Shown here one piece after another: positions 37,327 through 44,239 of a stretch of DNA of 45,685 nucleotides. The first letter of the stretch is position 1. Each line of letters starts with the position of its first letter. The notes under the pieces were generated by a model, which saw only the letters and a list, made by a program, of their open reading frames with translations, was not told the DNA's origin and ran no database searches. The position numbers and the translations under genes are program-made. The DNA is from an uncultured Verrucomicrobiota bacterium (lineage in GTDB: Bacteria; Verrucomicrobiota; Verrucomicrobiia; Limisphaerales; UBA9464): contig CAIXUG010000029.1 in NCBI GenBank assembly GCA_903922605.1, forward strand, positions 1 to 45,685. The letters run 5' to 3'.

Positions 37327-37469
37327 AGCCGCCCGCCGCCCCACCCCCTCCTGATGACCCGCCGGGGGTGCCGGGCTTTCGCACCTGGCGGGGCGTTTAC
37401 CAGTTCGTCTTCGCGTTCTTCGTGCTTTGCGTCCTGCTGCTCGCGGTGTTCTCGCGGGTATTCGCATGA
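37323..37469 (+). CDS. 48-residue single-span membrane protein
   Basis: A small frame starting ATG 37323, which overlaps the PIG-L stop (ATGA), and ending TGA 37469, which overlaps the symporter ATG 37466 (ATGA). The peptide has a Pro-rich cytoplasmic head (MKPPAAPPPPDDPPGVPGF), then RTW and one membrane helix (YQFVFAFFVLCVLLLAVF) with a short tail. Double four-base overlaps on both sides are strong evidence that it is translated. It has no known family that I recognise. Small helper proteins next to sodium:solute symporters are known (for example YjcH beside ActP), so it may be a symporter subunit. That is inference from position. Confidence 0.75.
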   Translation: MKPPAAPPPPDDPPGVPGFRTWRGVYQFVFAFFVLCVLLLAVFSRVFA

Positions 37470-39196
37470 ACCTCCTGGACTGGCTGGTGCTGCTGGGCGC
37501 GATTGTGGGGATCGCGGCCTATGGAACTTGGCGCACGCGCCATACCGACAGCCTCAACACCTACCTCAAGGGCAACCACAACACCGGCTGGGTGACCATC
37601 GGGCTGTCGGTCATGGCCACCCAGGCGAGCACGATCACCTATCTGTCGCTGCCGGGGCAGGCCTACGAGAACGGCATCGCCTTCATCCAGAATTATTTCG
37701 GCCTGCCGCTCGCGCTGATCATCGTGTGCGCCGTCTTCCTGCCGATCTACCGCAAGCTCGGGGTCTATACGGCCTACGAATATCTCGGGCAGCGGTTCGA
37801 CTCGAAGACACGGCTGCTCGGGGCCTCGCTCTTCCTCCTGCATCGCGGCCTGCAGGCGGGGATCACGATCTATGCGCCGGCCATCATCCTCTCGACCGTG
37901 CTCGGCTGGCGGCTGGACCTGACCATCCTGTTCACCGGTCTGGTGGTGATCATCTATACCGTCACCGGCGGCAGCGCGGCGGTGAACCTGACCCAGCGCT
38001 GGCAGATGGCGGTGATTTTCGGGGGCATGGTCACGGCGTTCGTTGTGCTGCTGACGAAGCTCCCGGCCGGGGCGGTGCCCATTGCCGGGGCGCTGGGCAA
38101 ACTGCAGGCCGTGGATTTCACGCCCGATCTGAAGCGGCGGTACACCCTCTGGAGCGGCATTCTCGGCGGCCTCTTCCTGTCGCTCTCGTATTTCGGCACC
38201 GACCAGACCCAGGTGCAGCGCTACATCGGCGGCGCGGCGCTGCGCGAGGGGCGGCTGGGCCTGATGTTCAACGCCATGTTCAAGATCCCGATGCAGTTCT
38301 GCATCGTGATGCTCGGCGCGCTGCTCTTTGTCTTTTTCCAGTTCCAGCCCGACACGCCCGTGTTCTTCAACCAGACCGAATGGCGGCGTCATGCGGCGGG
38401 CCCGGAAGGCGGCCGCCTGCACGTCATCGAGGAAAAACACACCGCGATCCTGGCAGACAAGCAGGTGAAAATCCGTGCGTGGATGGCGGCGCGTGAAAGT
38501 GGCGTGCCCGGGGCCGAAGCCTCCGCCCGCTCGGCGATGCTGGCCGCGCAAAAGGCGTCGGACGCGGTCCGCCAGGAGGCCCGCGACACGCTGCGGGCCA
38601 TCGATCCCCACGCCAAGATCAAGGACTCGGACTACGTGTTCATCACCTTCATCCTTACGCAGCTCCCGCACGGGGTGATCGGGCTGCTGATCGCGGTGAT
38701 GATTGCCTCGGCGCTTTCTTCCAAAGCCGGCGAGCTCAACGCGCTGGCGACGACCAGCACCATCGACCTCTGGCGCCACTTTCGTCCGCTCGCCGCGCAG
38801 GACGAGGCGCGGAATGTCCGCAACGCGAAGTGGTTTACGGCGCTCTGGGGCTGCTTTGCCATCGGCTTCGCGCTGTTCGTGAGCTTCGCCGAGAACCTCA
38901 TCGAGGCGCTCAATATTGTGGCGTCCCTCTTTTACCCGGCGCTGCTGGGCGTGTTTGTGGTCGCTTTCTTCCTGAAGAAGGTCGGCGGCTCGGCGGTGTT
39001 CTGGGCCGCGCTGGCTTCGCAGGTTTTCGTCCTGCTGCTTTTCTCCGCAGGAAAATTCCATCCGGCCTACGAGATCGGCTACCTCTGGCTGAACCCGATT
39101 GGCTGCGGCGCGTGCGTAGCCTTCAGCCTGCTGTTCCAGGCGATCATTGGCCAGCGGGCCGGTCCGCCCGCCAGCCCAATGCAGCCGGCCACATGA
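37466..39196 (+). CDS. Sodium:solute symporter family protein
   Basis: A 576-residue SSS-family transporter with about 13 membrane segments. The N-terminal part carries LKGNHNTGWVTIGLSVMATQ followed by ASTITYLSLPGQAYENG, which corresponds to the sodium-site region of TM1-TM2. SGILGGLFLSLSYFGTDQTQ VQRY is the usual signature in TM7-8. A hydrophilic, Ala/Arg-rich insert of about 95 residues (roughly 292-388) interrupts the transmembrane core and is probably helical. Such inserts occur in symporters beside PIG-L genes. ATG 37466 is preferred over an upstream frame start at 37427 because it overlaps the small gene. Substrate is unknown; a sugar, amino sugar or thiol precursor would fit the operon. 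The stop overlaps the BshC-like start as ATGA. Confidence 0.9.
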   Translation: MNLLDWLVLLGAIVGIAAYGTWRTRHTDSLNTYLKGNHNTGWVTIGLSVMATQASTITYLSLPGQAYENGIAFIQNYFGLPLALIIVCAVFLPIYRKLGVYTAYEYLGQRFDSKTRLLGASLFLLHRGLQAGITIYAPAIILSTVLGWRLDLTILFTGLVVIIYTVTGGSAAVNLTQRWQMAVIFGGMVTAFVVLLTKLPAGAVPIAGALGKLQAVDFTPDLKRRYTLWSGILGGLFLSLSYFGTDQTQVQRYIGGAALREGRLGLMFNAMFKIPMQFCIVMLGALLFVFFQFQPDTPVFFNQTEWRRHAAGPEGGRLHVIEEKHTAILADKQVKIRAWMAARESGVPGAEASARSAMLAAQKASDAVRQEARDTLRAIDPHAKIKDSDYVFITFILTQLPHGVIGLLIAVMIASALSSKAGELNALATTSTIDLWRHFRPLAAQDEARNVRNAKWFTALWGCFAIGFALFVSFAENLIEALNIVASLFYPALLGVFVVAFFLKKVGGSAVFWAALASQVFVLLLFSAGKFHPAYEIGYLWLNPIGCGACVAFSLLFQAIIGQRAGPPASPMQPAT

Positions 39197-39969
39197 GCGC
39201 CTCACCCGTCATCTGTTTCGGCCAGCAGCCCTGCGGTTTCTTTCCGCGGCGCTTCCTCTTCGCCAAGTTCGTCACGGCGCGTCGGCTCCAGTCGGAGATC
39301 GGCGGCGAAATCGTCTTCTTCTACCACGATAGCGACCACGATCCGCGCGAGACCCGCACCACCCTGCGCCACCGCAAGACCGATGAGCCGATCGAGCTGA
39401 ACTTCGCCTTCGAGAACCCGACGCAGCGCAAGTTCACCCCGCTCTACCGGAAGCAGGTCCGCGCGGACTGGCACGCCAAGACCGCGTTGCAGCTTCCGGC
39501 CTATGTGGACCGGCGCTGGGTGGAGGCGTTCCGCGCGGAGACAGCGGCCAACGTGGCCGACTTCTGCCTCGGAATGTACCGCCGCATGGGACTGCTGGAG
39601 GGCATCCGCGTCGCGCGGTCGTCCGACCCGGAGTTTCGCCGCGCGGCGTGTGCGGTGACGGACTTCTTCGTGGATGTGCCTTACGAGAACGAGGTTGTCC
39701 GCGCTCGGTGCGTCGATGGCATGTTGAAGCTCCACAAGGGCGGCGACATCTTCGTCACGCTGCCGTCCCAGGACTTCGGCAAGGAACAGATCAGCCCCGC
39801 GCGCGACAGCCGCCTGCGCTGGATGCAGTCGGTCGTCCGCTGCACCCATTATGTCGCCGGCCTCGGCGAACAGGCGTATCTGTGCCACGCCGACGCACCC
39901 GAAATCACGTTCGTCAACCGCGACCCCATCGACCGCTCCGATGAAGCCTACACCGATCTCCCCGCCTGA
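39193..39969 (+). CDS. Short BshC-like protein, candidate cysteine-adding enzyme
   Basis: A 258-residue protein starting ATG 39193 (ATGA overlap with the symporter stop). It carries three features of BshC in the right order: GQQ at residues 10-12 followed by a Lys in the next helix (VICFGQQPCGFF), DHD at 48-50 in VFFYHDSDHDPRET (BshC: FW-AGEDHD--E), and VAGLGEQAYL at 221-230 (BshC: IAGPGEINYW). Usual BshC proteins are about 520-540 residues with a C-terminal coiled coil. This one lacks the coiled coil and much of the middle. It overlaps bshB1 by 29 bases and lies next to bshA, which is where BshC would be expected. I infer it adds cysteine to GlcN-malate. Remote similarity is by eye only, so a different ligase is possible. 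Confidence 0.65.
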   Translation: MSASPVICFGQQPCGFFPRRFLFAKFVTARRLQSEIGGEIVFFYHDSDHDPRETRTTLRHRKTDEPIELNFAFENPTQRKFTPLYRKQVRADWHAKTALQLPAYVDRRWVEAFRAETAANVADFCLGMYRRMGLLEGIRVARSSDPEFRRAACAVTDFFVDVPYENEVVRARCVDGMLKLHKGGDIFVTLPSQDFGKEQISPARDSRLRWMQSVVRCTHYVAGLGEQAYLCHADAPEITFVNRDPIDRSDEAYTDLPA

Positions 39970-40678
39970 ACCGGCTCCGCTGCTGGCTTTCGGCGCCCAC
40001 CCGGACGACCTCGAGTTCGGCTGCGGGGCGGTGCTGGCCCAGGAATCCCGGCTGGGTCGGCCGGTGCATTTGGTCGTCTGTTCCCGTGGCGAATCCGGCT
40101 CGCGGGGAACGCCCGAGGAACGGGTCCGCGAGGCGGAAAACGCGGCGGCCCTGATGGGGGCGACGCTGGAATTCATCGAGCTCGACGGTGATGCCCATCT
40201 GGAGATCCGGGCCGCGCACGCGATCCGTCTGGCGGGGATCATCCGCCAGCAGCGGCCGGGAATCGTGCTGGCACCCAGCACGGTGCCCAATCAGCACCCG
40301 GATCACTGGCGGCTGGGAACGCTCGTCCGGGACGCCTCGCGGCTGGCCCGTTATGGCGGCGTGGCGGAGCTGCGCGACCAGCCGGGCCACGCGATTGACC
40401 AACTGCTCTTTTACGCGATCACACCCGAGGCGGAGCCACCCGACATTTCACCGCTGTTCATTGACGTCTCGGCGCCCGAGGTCATCGCCGCGTGGACCGC
40501 GGCCATGGCGGCGCATGTCACGCAAGTGTCCGCCCGGGGCTATGTCGATCTCCAGCTCGCGCGCGCCCGTATCCTCGGACTGCGCTCCGGGGTCACGCAC
40601 GCCCAGGCGCTCTTCCCCAATGATCCGCCGGTGTTCGCCTCCCTGGGTTCACTCGGCGGCGCTGCCGGTCGCTTCTGA
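39941..40678 (+). CDS. bshB1: BshB1-type N-acetylglucosaminyl-malate deacetylase
   Basis: A 245-residue cytoplasmic PIG-L/LmbE enzyme that should deacetylate GlcNAc-malate to GlcN-malate in bacillithiol-type synthesis. The zinc motif AHPDD lies near residues 18-22, and HPDH in VPNQHPDHWRLG gives the third ligand. RGESGSRGTPEERVREAENA is the typical BshB1 loop, and the C-terminal sequence GVTHAQALFPNDPP closes the active site as in BshB1. ATG 39941 lies inside the end of the BshC-like gene. There is no signal peptide, unlike the large PIG-L protein upstream. One base separates it from bshA. Assignment to BshB1 rather than another LmbE protein rests on length, these motifs and the neighbour. 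Confidence 0.88.
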   Translation: MKPTPISPPEPAPLLAFGAHPDDLEFGCGAVLAQESRLGRPVHLVVCSRGESGSRGTPEERVREAENAAALMGATLEFIELDGDAHLEIRAAHAIRLAGIIRQQRPGIVLAPSTVPNQHPDHWRLGTLVRDASRLARYGGVAELRDQPGHAIDQLLFYAITPEAEPPDISPLFIDVSAPEVIAAWTAAMAAHVTQVSARGYVDLQLARARILGLRSGVTHAQALFPNDPPVFASLGSLGGAAGRF

Positions 40679-40679
40679 C

Positions 40680-41822
40680 ATGACGCCGGCGCGGCCATTG
40701 ACGATCGGCATCACGTGTTATCCTTCGGTGGGCGGCAGCGGGGTATTGGCTTCGGCGCTGGGCGAGGAGCTGGCGAAGCGCGGCCACGACGTCCACTTCA
40801 TCAGCTACGAACGGCCCTTCCGCCTGCCGGCCGATGCACCGCGCCTGCATTTTCATCCGGTCGTGATCAACGACTACGACCTGTTCAAATATCCCGACTA
40901 CACGCTGCCGTTGTCAGTGAAGATGGCCGAGGTCAGCCAGAAGCACGGGCTAGACCTGCTCCATGTCCATTACGCGGTGCCACACGCCACGGCCGCCATT
41001 CTCGCCCGGTCGATGCTGCCACCAGGAAACCGCCTGCGGGTGGTCACCACGCTCCACGGCACTGACACGACACTGCTCGGACGCGATGCGGGCTACGGTC
41101 CCGCCATCCTCCACGCCCTCAACTGCTCCGACGCCGTGACCGCCGTTTCGGAGTTCCTGAAGGGGGAGAGCCAGCGGCTGCTCGCGTTCAACGGACCGGT
41201 GGACGTGATCCACAATTTCTTCGCCCCGCGTCCGCCGCAGCGCACCCGGGAAGAGGTCCGTCGCGAACTCGGCGTCGGGCCGGATGAGGTGCTGCTGTTC
41301 CACTCCTCGAACCTGCGTCCGCTGAAGCGTGTGGACCTCGTGCTCGAAGCGGTGTCCCTCCTGAAGACCACCACTCCTTTCAAGCTACTGGTCTTGGCCG
41401 GCGGCAGCTTCACGCCCTTCATGGAGCAGGCGCGAAAGCTCGGCCTGGAGGACAACCTGATTGTCCGCGAGAACGTCAACGCCATCGAGGACCAGCTTCA
41501 GGCCGCCGATCTGGGCGTGTTCGCCTCGGACACCGAAAGCTTCTGCCTGAGCATCCTGGAAGCGATGTGTTTCCGCTGCCCGAGCGTCGCGACCCGCGTC
41601 GGCGGGATTCCTGAACTGGTGGAAGAGGGAACGACCGGTGTCCTGGTCCCCTCGGGGGATGCCCACGCGCTGGCCACCGCCCTCGACAGCCTCATTGTGA
41701 ACCCGTCGCGCCGCCTGACCATGGGGGGGCTCGCGCAGATCCGGGCGCACGAGCGGTTCTCATCCGAGGCTATCGTTCCCCAATATGAGGCGCTGTATCG
41801 GCGGGTCTGTTCGATCTTTTGA
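40680..41822 (+). CDS. bshA: N-acetyl-alpha-D-glucosaminyl L-malate synthase
   Basis: A 380-residue GT-B, family 4 glycosyltransferase that joins GlcNAc from UDP-GlcNAc to L-malate, the first step of bacillithiol synthesis. Signature phrases of BshA are present: ITCYPSVGGSGVLASALGEE, LAKRGHDVHFISYERPFRL, NDYDLFKYPDYTLPLSVKM, HVHYAVPHATAA and TTLHGTDTTLLGRD. The C-terminal domain has the GT4 donor site (SNLRPLKRVDL, ESFCLSILEAMCFRCP). ATG 40680 follows the bshB1 stop by one base; a much longer frame to 40188 is antisense filler. It is the last gene of the operon, and a repeat-filled gap follows. This is the surest gene of the thiol cluster. Confidence 0.96.
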   Translation: MTPARPLTIGITCYPSVGGSGVLASALGEELAKRGHDVHFISYERPFRLPADAPRLHFHPVVINDYDLFKYPDYTLPLSVKMAEVSQKHGLDLLHVHYAVPHATAAILARSMLPPGNRLRVVTTLHGTDTTLLGRDAGYGPAILHALNCSDAVTAVSEFLKGESQRLLAFNGPVDVIHNFFAPRPPQRTREEVRRELGVGPDEVLLFHSSNLRPLKRVDLVLEAVSLLKTTTPFKLLVLAGGSFTPFMEQARKLGLEDNLIVRENVNAIEDQLQAADLGVFASDTESFCLSILEAMCFRCPSVATRVGGIPELVEEGTTGVLVPSGDAHALATALDSLIVNPSRRLTMGGLAQIRAHERFSSEAIVPQYEALYRRVCSIF

Positions 41823-42316: not shown

Positions 42317-42396
42317 CGTTGCCCGACGCCTGCCCCAAATGGGCCATTTCATAAAAACTCGTTGTCTTGGGCCGGACCGCGCCTAGTTTCGCGGCG

Positions 42397-43086
42397 ATGA
42401 CGAAGACGTTCGCCGAACTGGGGTTTCCCGGGCGCCTGATTGCGGTCGAGGGCCTCGACGGCTCCGGCAAATCCACCCAGGTACATCTGCTCCAGAAGTG
42501 GCTGGAACAGCAGGGCTGCAAGGTTTTCTTCTCCGAGTGGAACTCCTCGGCACTCGTGAAGAGCGCCACCAGCAAGGGGAAGAAGCAGAACCTGCTCACC
42601 CCCACGACCTTCAGCCTCATCCACGCCACCGACTTTGCCGACCGCTACGAGCGCCAGCTGCTGCCGCTGCTGCGCGCCGGCTACATCGTGCTGTGCGACC
42701 GCTATATCTTCACGGCCTTCGCCCGCGATGTGGTGCGCGGCTGCCCGCCCGACTGGGTGCGCGGGGTCTATTCGTTCGCGGCGCTGCCTGACCTCACCTT
42801 CTTCTTCCGGGCTGACCTCGAGGTCTCGCTGGCGCGCATCCTCGACAACCGGCCCGTGCTCAAGTTCCACGAGGCGGGCATGGACCTGAACCTTTCGCCC
42901 GATCCCTACGAGAGCTTCCGCCTCTTCCAGGGGCGCATCTTCGAGCAGTACCTGGCCATGAGCACCGAGTTCCACTTCACGATCATGGACGCCAACCAGC
43001 GCATCGAGGAGCAGCAAGGGCTCGTGCGCAAGCTGCTGACCTCCAAGGTGGCCATCCGGAAATTTACCGCCACGAAAGCCAATTAG
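42397..43086 (+). CDS. tmk: Thymidylate kinase homologue, first of pair
   Basis: A 229-residue P-loop nucleotide kinase that should convert dTMP to dTDP. The Walker A is intact (GLDGSGKST, residues 19-27). The dTMP-site motif CDRYIFTAFARDVVRG lies near 112-127, and a lid region and a helical C-terminus follow. It is slightly longer than typical bacterial Tmk (about 210). ATG 42397 is preferred over TTG 42367. It is followed within three bases by a small lipoprotein and then by a second kinase homologue with an altered Walker A. Which of the two supplies the essential activity is best judged from the intact loop, which is here. Confidence 0.88.
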   Translation: MTKTFAELGFPGRLIAVEGLDGSGKSTQVHLLQKWLEQQGCKVFFSEWNSSALVKSATSKGKKQNLLTPTTFSLIHATDFADRYERQLLPLLRAGYIVLCDRYIFTAFARDVVRGCPPDWVRGVYSFAALPDLTFFFRADLEVSLARILDNRPVLKFHEAGMDLNLSPDPYESFRLFQGRIFEQYLAMSTEFHFTIMDANQRIEEQQGLVRKLLTSKVAIRKFTATKAN

Positions 43087-43474: not shown

Positions 43475-44239
43475 ATGCCCGCCACGAAATTCAAACCCAC
43501 CCGCCGCGTCCCGACCCGTCCGCCTGCCACCGTCGTCGTCCCCGAGGTCACACCCAAGCGCTTCTACGGCCATGGCCTTCCCGGTGAGGATCTTACCAAG
43601 CTGAATGGCAAGCTTATTGTCGTCGAGGGCGCGGACGGTTCGGGGCGCTCCACCCAGATTTCGCAGCTCGTCCAGTGGCTCGAAGGCACCGGTCACGCCA
43701 CCCTGCAGGTCGGGCTCAAACGCTCCACCCTCGTCAGCGAGGAGCTGGAGCAGGCGCAGAATGGCAACATCCTCTCCCGCACCACCTTGTCGCTGTTTTA
43801 CGCGACCGATTTCGCCGACCAATTGGAAAATGCGATCCTGCCCGCGCTCCGGGCCGGCTTCATGGTCCTGGCCGACCGCTATATCTATACTCTCATGGTC
43901 CGCGACCTCGTGCGCGGCGTGGACGAGGCATGGCTGCGGAATGTTTACGGCATCGCCCTCGTGCCCGACGCCGTGATCTACCTCGACGTGCGGCCGGAGC
44001 AGCTCGTCCAGCGCGTTTTCGCGAAGAACCAGTCGCTCGACTATTGGGAAAGTGGCATGGACCTCGGCCTGTCCCGCGACATGTTCGACAGCTTCCTGAA
44101 ATACCAGGCGCTGATGCGCGCCGCCTTCCGCCGCCTGCAGAAGACCTACGGTTTCGCCATCGTGGATGGCGAACGCCCGCCCTCCGAGGTCAGCGAGGAG
44201 CTGAAGCAGAAGATCTCGGCGGTATTGGCCGGCCACTGA
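43475..44239 (+). CDS. Thymidylate kinase homologue, second, with altered Walker A
   Basis: A 254-residue paralogue of the preceding kinase. It has an N-terminal basic, Pro-rich extension of about 45 residues (TKFKPTRRVPTRPP), then LIVVEGADGSGRSTQIS. The Walker A Lys is replaced by Arg58 (codon CGC), while the rest of the loop is kept. The dTMP-site motif ADRYIYTLMVRDLVRG is conserved and the lid contains DYWESGMDLGLSRDM. It lies 11 bases after the lipoprotein gene. Arg in place of Lys usually lowers or removes phosphoryl transfer, so this may be a regulatory partner or a kinase with changed mechanism. It may still be a known GRST subfamily that works. Confidence 0.85.
   Translation: MPATKFKPTRRVPTRPPATVVVPEVTPKRFYGHGLPGEDLTKLNGKLIVVEGADGSGRSTQISQLVQWLEGTGHATLQVGLKRSTLVSEELEQAQNGNILSRTTLSLFYATDFADQLENAILPALRAGFMVLADRYIYTLMVRDLVRGVDEAWLRNVYGIALVPDAVIYLDVRPEQLVQRVFAKNQSLDYWESGMDLGLSRDMFDSFLKYQALMRAAFRRLQKTYGFAIVDGERPPSEVSEELKQKISAVLAGH

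Follow-up and report, generated by a model that had tools for sequence, protein, structure and literature searches.

BshA and BshB together make glucosaminyl-malate (GlcN-malate), as is established for these protein families, and BshC/YllA (PF10079; Protein Data Bank (PDB) entry 4wbd) is the putative cysteine-adding enzyme. The mycothiol cysteine ligase MshC (8hfn, 3c8z) carries out the corresponding reaction on another conjugate of glucosamine. A contig from an uncultured bacterium of the Verrucomicrobiota (GenBank CAIXUG010000029.1; contig 29 of the 5.3-Mb assembly GCA_903922605.1), analyzed here over its whole length of 45,685 nucleotides (the window), carries bshA and a bshB1-like gene together with a third gene, here termed X. 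The product of X is a BshC homologue of about half the usual size, and it takes the place of BshC in the genomes sampled.

According to a 2015 review, BshC activity had never been shown in vitro, and the coiled coil of the protein is required for dimerization (PMC4360819). BshA and BshC homologues are reported in archaea in a further paper (PMC7278568), and a related paper is PMC12719100. A 2018 survey counts Verrucomicrobia as one of the groups in which there is "no documented or predicted" thiol of low molecular weight, and its criterion was the presence of bshA-C orthologues similar in length to the query (PMC6282198). Carriers of X fail this criterion; thus, producers with X (17 of the 288 Verrucomicrobiota genomes analyzed here) would have been missed by it. 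Among the titles and abstract openings that were searched, which cover part of the literature, there is no report of a short BshC.

X resembles BshC in its Rossmann core, in the order of its motifs (GQQ-DHD-E-G-x-x-E) and in its link to bshB and bshA. The two proteins differ in length (~258 vs. ~540 residues), with reduced inserts in X, and X lacks the N-terminal 80 residues of BshC, the C-terminal coiled coil and a match to the Pfam or NCBIfam families. X also has invariant residues of its own and neighbors that encode a PIG-L-type protein and a sodium:solute symporter (SSF), and the X-bearing genomes tested contain neither YpdA above its cut-off nor BrxA/B. With MshC, X has in common a class I synthetase-like fold, at a match of only Z 7.4-7.5; unlike the MshC pathway, that of X would use a BshA-type malate acceptor.

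The relationship of X to BshC is apparent from its predicted fold. An AlphaFold model built from an alignment of 24 relatives has a mean predicted local distance difference test (pLDDT) score of 94.0 and a predicted template-modeling score (pTM) of 0.91. When this model was compared with the PDB by using Foldseek, the sole match at E ≤ 0.001 was 4wbd, the BshC of Bacillus subtilis (E = 2.8e-10, prob 1.00, template-modeling score 0.63 by query length); the next match had an E-value of 1e-2. In the VIA comparison, X matched 4wbd with a Z of 20.2 and a deviation of 2.7 Å over 240 of its 258 residues. The runners-up were class I lysyl-tRNA synthetase (1irx; Z 14.5), and cysteinyl-tRNA synthetase and MshC (7.4-8.4), as might be expected if X were an unrelated protein of the class I aminoacyl-tRNA-synthetase kind whose likeness to BshC reflects nothing beyond a shared Rossmann fold. 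We regard this explanation as very improbable, because BshC is far ahead of these proteins in both comparisons, the profiles of X and BshC align in register, and X is linked genomically to bshA and bshB.

The profile alignment was made with hhalign, by using 106 X sequences (those with >240 matched residues, with bshA-centered duplicates excluded) and 37 BshC sequences, and it extends over 228 columns (E = 8.3e-8, Prob 94.5). Six column-shuffled BshC profiles and one reversed BshC profile, used as decoys, gave Prob ≤ 0.5, and the profiles of BshA, BshB, the symporter and the PIG-L protein gave Prob ≤ 0.4. X is, therefore, a genuine BshC homologue. It is better named a half-size BshC homologue than BshC, because it fails the Pfam score and does not have the coiled-coil feature.

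An original prediction, made by eye, had proposed a half-size BshC-like protein within a bacillithiol-type cluster that has no normal bshC, and had offered two readings of it: a minimal BshC, or an enzyme whose product differs from bacillithiol. The proposed likeness is borne out by the fold, which is of the BshC type, and by the profile-profile match, and a search of the organism's own genome agrees with the remainder of the claim: PF10079 was not found, although the absence is not absolute in an assembly that is 95.84% complete and divided into 90 contigs. A second bshC elsewhere in this genome was rejected as a candidate on the same search.

Thirty-six BshC positions are conserved at ≥92%, and 24 of these align to X. 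Thirteen are identical, namely GQQ, K25, F42, D48, D50, E53, G137, R207, G223, E226 and Y229 (X numbering). Each of the three residues in GQQ is present in all 106 X sequences, and in 37, 36 and 37, respectively, of the 37 BshC sequences. D48 occurs in 106 and D50 in 105 of the 106 X sequences; the corresponding D133 and D135 of BshC are each present in 36 of 37. E53, which aligns to E138 of BshC, and the pair G223 and E226, which aligns to G350 and E353, are invariant in both families (106/106 and 37/37). The three motifs that the original prediction had read from the letters, GQQ, DHD (D48-H49-D50) and VAGLGE (V221-E226), are all present at the residues given. A zinc site built from the invariant cysteines and histidines of X was considered and rejected.

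The X family is conserved and uniformly short. In 105 of the 106 sequences, the stop codon follows the matched region by 0-19 residues (median of 1), and the remaining sequence is cut by the end of its contig. This common end point rules out that X is a truncated or frameshifted bshC, or otherwise a damaged gene. At the other end, the symporter reading frame stops no more than 240 bases from the start of the X match in 93 of the 100 sequences that have a symporter on the same strand, so that the 80 residues at the N-terminus of BshC would not fit. The C-terminal helical part is missing as well, with the stop codon directly after the core and BshC positions 497-534 unaligned. Codon differences between X and near relatives are mostly silent and at the third position, with 38 silent and 19 changing codons for locus L019, 102 and 50 for L020, and 88 and 51 for L022.

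X takes the place of BshC genome by genome. Among 288 Verrucomicrobiota genomes, X is present in 17 and PF10079 in 2, and BshA scores above its cut-off in 19, which are exactly these 17 and 2; no genome has both X and BshC (X-BshA association by Fisher's test, 1.5e-25). PF10079 is absent from all 17 X carriers of this phylum, and was not matched in 20 X carriers that were reached through other loci. Beyond the Verrucomicrobiota, X and BshA occur in the identical 10 of 97 genomes (8e-14) in the class of one genome (G288) that was reached via a locus titled Cyanobacteria SZAS-4; other such X loci are titled Obscuribacterales, and two of these 10 carriers (G288 and G291) are among the 20 that gave no BshC match. 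In the phylum of another genome (G293), whose record is titled Phycisphaerae and which presumably belongs to Planctomycetota, BshC occurs in 150 of 294 genomes, and X in 1 of 199. That single carrier is G293 itself, which has no BshC; its X (loci L073/L144) is split by an in-frame stop, and the neighboring genes of the cluster are present.

In total, 277 relatives of X were found and 80 were kept. A hit in a further Verrucomicrobiota genome (G011) was dropped as a non-homologue (E = 7.4e-5, 32% over 100 residues of a 1037-residue frame), which brings the carriers counted from 18 to 17, and that genome has no BshA above the cut-off. The plasmid collection contained no match to X, and the viral contigs contained no relative of X, BshC or the PIG-L protein. 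In a midpoint-rooted tree of 42 X sequences, the 12 Obscuribacterales-type sequences form one starred clade among those of Verrucomicrobiota, which suggests a single transfer.

Because X is homologous to BshC and replaces it genome by genome, X most likely performs the step assigned to BshC. BshA would join N-acetylglucosamine (GlcNAc) from UDP-GlcNAc to malate, and BshB would then remove the acetyl group. X would activate an amino acid in its class-I-synthetase-like Rossmann core and join it to the free amine of GlcN-malate. The likeliest amino acid would be cysteine, which would yield bacillithiol or a close relative. Outside the cell, the PIG-L protein and the symporter might, as a guess, trim such amide conjugates and take them up again. 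We favor, as the probable reading of the cluster, a bacillithiol-type pathway in which X attaches cysteine to GlcN-malate. Carriers for which such a thiol is not known probably produce one, or produce a new molecule of similar build. A natural half-size core also offers a direct way to ask what a minimal ligase needs and which group it adds.

Several observations weigh against this reading. Searches of X against Pfam and NCBIfam matched no family at E ≤ 10 and do not retrieve BshC, and a sequence search of the PDB with the 24-row X profile likewise found nothing at E ≤ 10. The hhalign result is weak when few BshC sequences are used (Prob 0.4 with 2 rows and 10.6 with 5) and is significant only with 37. 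For 12 of the 36 positions conserved in BshC, among them P497, Q502-E503-R504 and H534, X has no counterpart, and another 11 align to different residues. X also has invariant residues of its own, for example H45 (A130 in BshC), C125, C217 and H219. As for gene content, 3 of the 20 long X neighborhoods have a cluster that lacks bshB. Among 80 loci (L019-L098), for which our counts give presence on the same strand where enough flanking sequence exists and not strict adjacency, two of 72 (L036 and L064) yielded no bshA. The redox partners of bacillithiol are also missing: among the 288 genomes searched, YpdA scores above its cut-off only in the two that have BshC, and in 0 of the 17 that have X. 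BrxA/B (PF06491) is likewise found in the two genomes with BshC, but was matched in none of 27 genomes with X and none of 34 others.

Some of these observations would fit better if X were a ligase of the BshC kind that adds a group other than cysteine (a different amino acid or an acyl group), with a new GlcN-malate conjugate instead of a classical thiol as the product, handled outside the cell by the PIG-L protein and the symporter. Besides the distribution of YpdA and BrxA/B, the position of X-specific invariant residues next to the active-site motifs favors such an activity; for example, the invariant H45-D46 precedes D48-H49-D50. The gene neighborhoods point the same way, because the PIG-L protein is encoded in 18 and the symporter in all 20 of the long X neighborhoods, whereas neither was found at E ≤ 1e-8 in 20 neighborhoods of full-length BshC (each of 5.4 to 19.5 kb; 3 from Verrucomicrobiota and 17 from the phylum that includes G293). 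However, the core motifs of X are those of BshC, and the known redox partners are not universal. YpdA was detected in all three control genomes that have BshC, but in the Thermus and Deinobacterium controls PF10079 was matched and PF06491 was not; the absence of BrxA/B is, for this reason, not decisive. Two X genomes (G039 and G048) have YpdA matches below the cut-off (~150 bits vs. 339.9), and missing known partners may simply mean that there are unknown ones. On balance, we judge a non-cysteine group to be unlikely, and retain cysteine as the favored substrate.

The missing parts of X raise the question of whether it is a ligase by itself. X does not have the coiled coil that, in the 2015 review, is called required for BshC dimerization (PMC4360819), nor the conserved PQER and H534 positions, and so it might be a remnant of BshC that has decayed or has a regulatory role, or might form a complex with a second half from another gene locus. 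This is improbable given that the length of X is conserved, its motifs are invariant, its structure model is confident and third codon positions vary most. Moreover, no further gene family occurs in more than four of the loci L019-L098 (flanks ≤4 kb).

X belongs to a series of five consecutive genes (Table 1). The original prediction placed bshA, bshB1 and X where they are found here, with X overlapping bshB1, and delimited the cluster as 39193-41822. The genes are present in that interval, but the cluster is wider, because it also takes in the genes for the PIG-L protein and the symporter. BshA passes the curated NCBIfam cut-off of TIGR03999. BshB is above the Pfam PIG-L cut-off and below that of TIGR04001 (BshB1; 121.8 vs. 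182.5 bits).

Table 1. Positions of the five-gene cluster and of the X motifs in the window.
Feature	Coordinates	Strand	Basis
PIG-L-type protein "PIGL827", 827 residues	34843..37326	+	PF02585 55 bits, cut-off 28.2
Sodium:solute symporter (SSF)	37427..39196	+	PF00474 129 bits; TIGR00813 206 bits, cut-off 184
X, half-size BshC homologue, 258 residues	39193..39969	+	Fold and profile-profile match to BshC
GQQ motif of X, residues 10-12	39220..39228	+	Aligned to BshC 89-91
DHD motif of X, residues 48-50	39334..39342	+	Aligned to BshC 133-135
VAGLGE of X, residues 221-226	39853..39870	+	Aligned to BshC AGPGE loop (G350, E353)
bshB1-like deacetylase, 245 residues	39941..40678	+	PF02585 70.5 bits, cut-off 28.2
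bshA, UDP-GlcNAc:malate glycosyltransferase, 380 residues	40680..41822	+	TIGR03999 378 bits, cut-off 273.7

The stop codon of the symporter gene and the start codon of X overlap as ATGA, bshB1 overlaps the 3' end of X by 29 bases, and a single base separates bshB from bshA. These overlaps and the one-base gap suggest that the last four genes are probably on one transcript. The bshB1 start (ATG at 39941) was picked by eye, as was the likelier start of the symporter, an ATG at 37466 within an open reading frame that begins with TTG at 37427.

The arrangement recurs widely. Where loci L019-L098 have enough flanking sequence, 70 of 74 have the symporter upstream of X, and 64 of 70 have the PIG-L protein there; on the downstream side, bshB occurs in 76 of 77 and bshA in 70 of 72. 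The order of genes is mostly kept. In the 20 long neighborhoods, the symporter is always directly upstream of X, and bshB is present in 17 and bshA in 20. The association of the symporter and PIG-L pair with X holds only relative to the 20 BshC neighborhoods sampled. Bacteroidota may pair similar PIG-L and SSF genes with bshC. The co-conserved pair points to an uncharacterized, extracellular side of the pathway. Three loci (L222, L227 and L232) have the PIG-L protein and the symporter, but their X and bshA genes are not separated by a bshB; the deacetylase must be encoded elsewhere or be replaced.

The five genes could represent a distinct branch among bacillithiol-type pathways, with a GlcN-malate conjugate that is not plain bacillithiol, partly extracellular handling and no YpdA or bacilliredoxins, and could have passed as one unit from Verrucomicrobiota to Obscuribacterales-type bacteria. 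We put this forward tentatively, as a possibility somewhat on the unlikely side.

PIGL827 consists of a signal-peptide-like N-terminus (identified by eye), a PIG-L domain at about residues 52-186, a β-sandwich middle part and an α/β C-terminal part. It shares the PIG-L domain with BshB and with the S-conjugate amidases Mca and Bca, but is about three times longer than these proteins and probably exported. Its best NCBIfam match is the mycothiol conjugate amidase Mca (E = 7.5e-12), at 45.4 bits far below the cut-off of 277. The AlphaFold model (pLDDT 85; <50 for residues 1-30) matches diacetylchitobiose deacetylases and LnmX in Foldseek and, lower down, BshB (6p2t). PIGL827 is thus probably an exported amidase or deacetylase.

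Relatives of PIGL827 are present in 32 plasmid records, and in 21 of these both the N- and C-terminal parts are matched (52-74% query coverage). All 21 come from genera of Alphaproteobacteria, as stated in the taxonomy line for 6 and as we presume for the genera of the other 15. In each of the six plasmid neighborhoods opened out of these 21 (L239-L244), the PIGL827 relative is beside a ROK regulator and an operon for a sugar (ugpC-type) ATP-binding cassette (ABC) importer, which includes a gene annotated as argininosuccinate lyase (argH). A nagB gene is nearby in one of the six, and a cysteine dioxygenase gene in another. Reactions of the argininosuccinate lyase superfamily release fumarate. 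We speculate that these units might strip the amide, import GlcN-malate and split it into fumarate and glucosamine, for example in bacillithiol catabolism. However, the two lyases that were scanned score above the NCBIfam cut-off for argH (312.8 and 282.4 vs. 279.5), and one unit has genes for arginine deiminase and argF in its vicinity; thus, the lyases may be ordinary arginine genes.

Directly upstream of the full-length bshC at two Verrucomicrobiota loci (L099 and L100) is a methyltransferase-like gene, identified by eye, that is perhaps NmbA-like. Elsewhere in the window, two differing genes of the thymidylate kinase family are arranged in tandem (42367-43086 and 43475-44239), with a small lipoprotein-like open reading frame, also identified by eye, between them.

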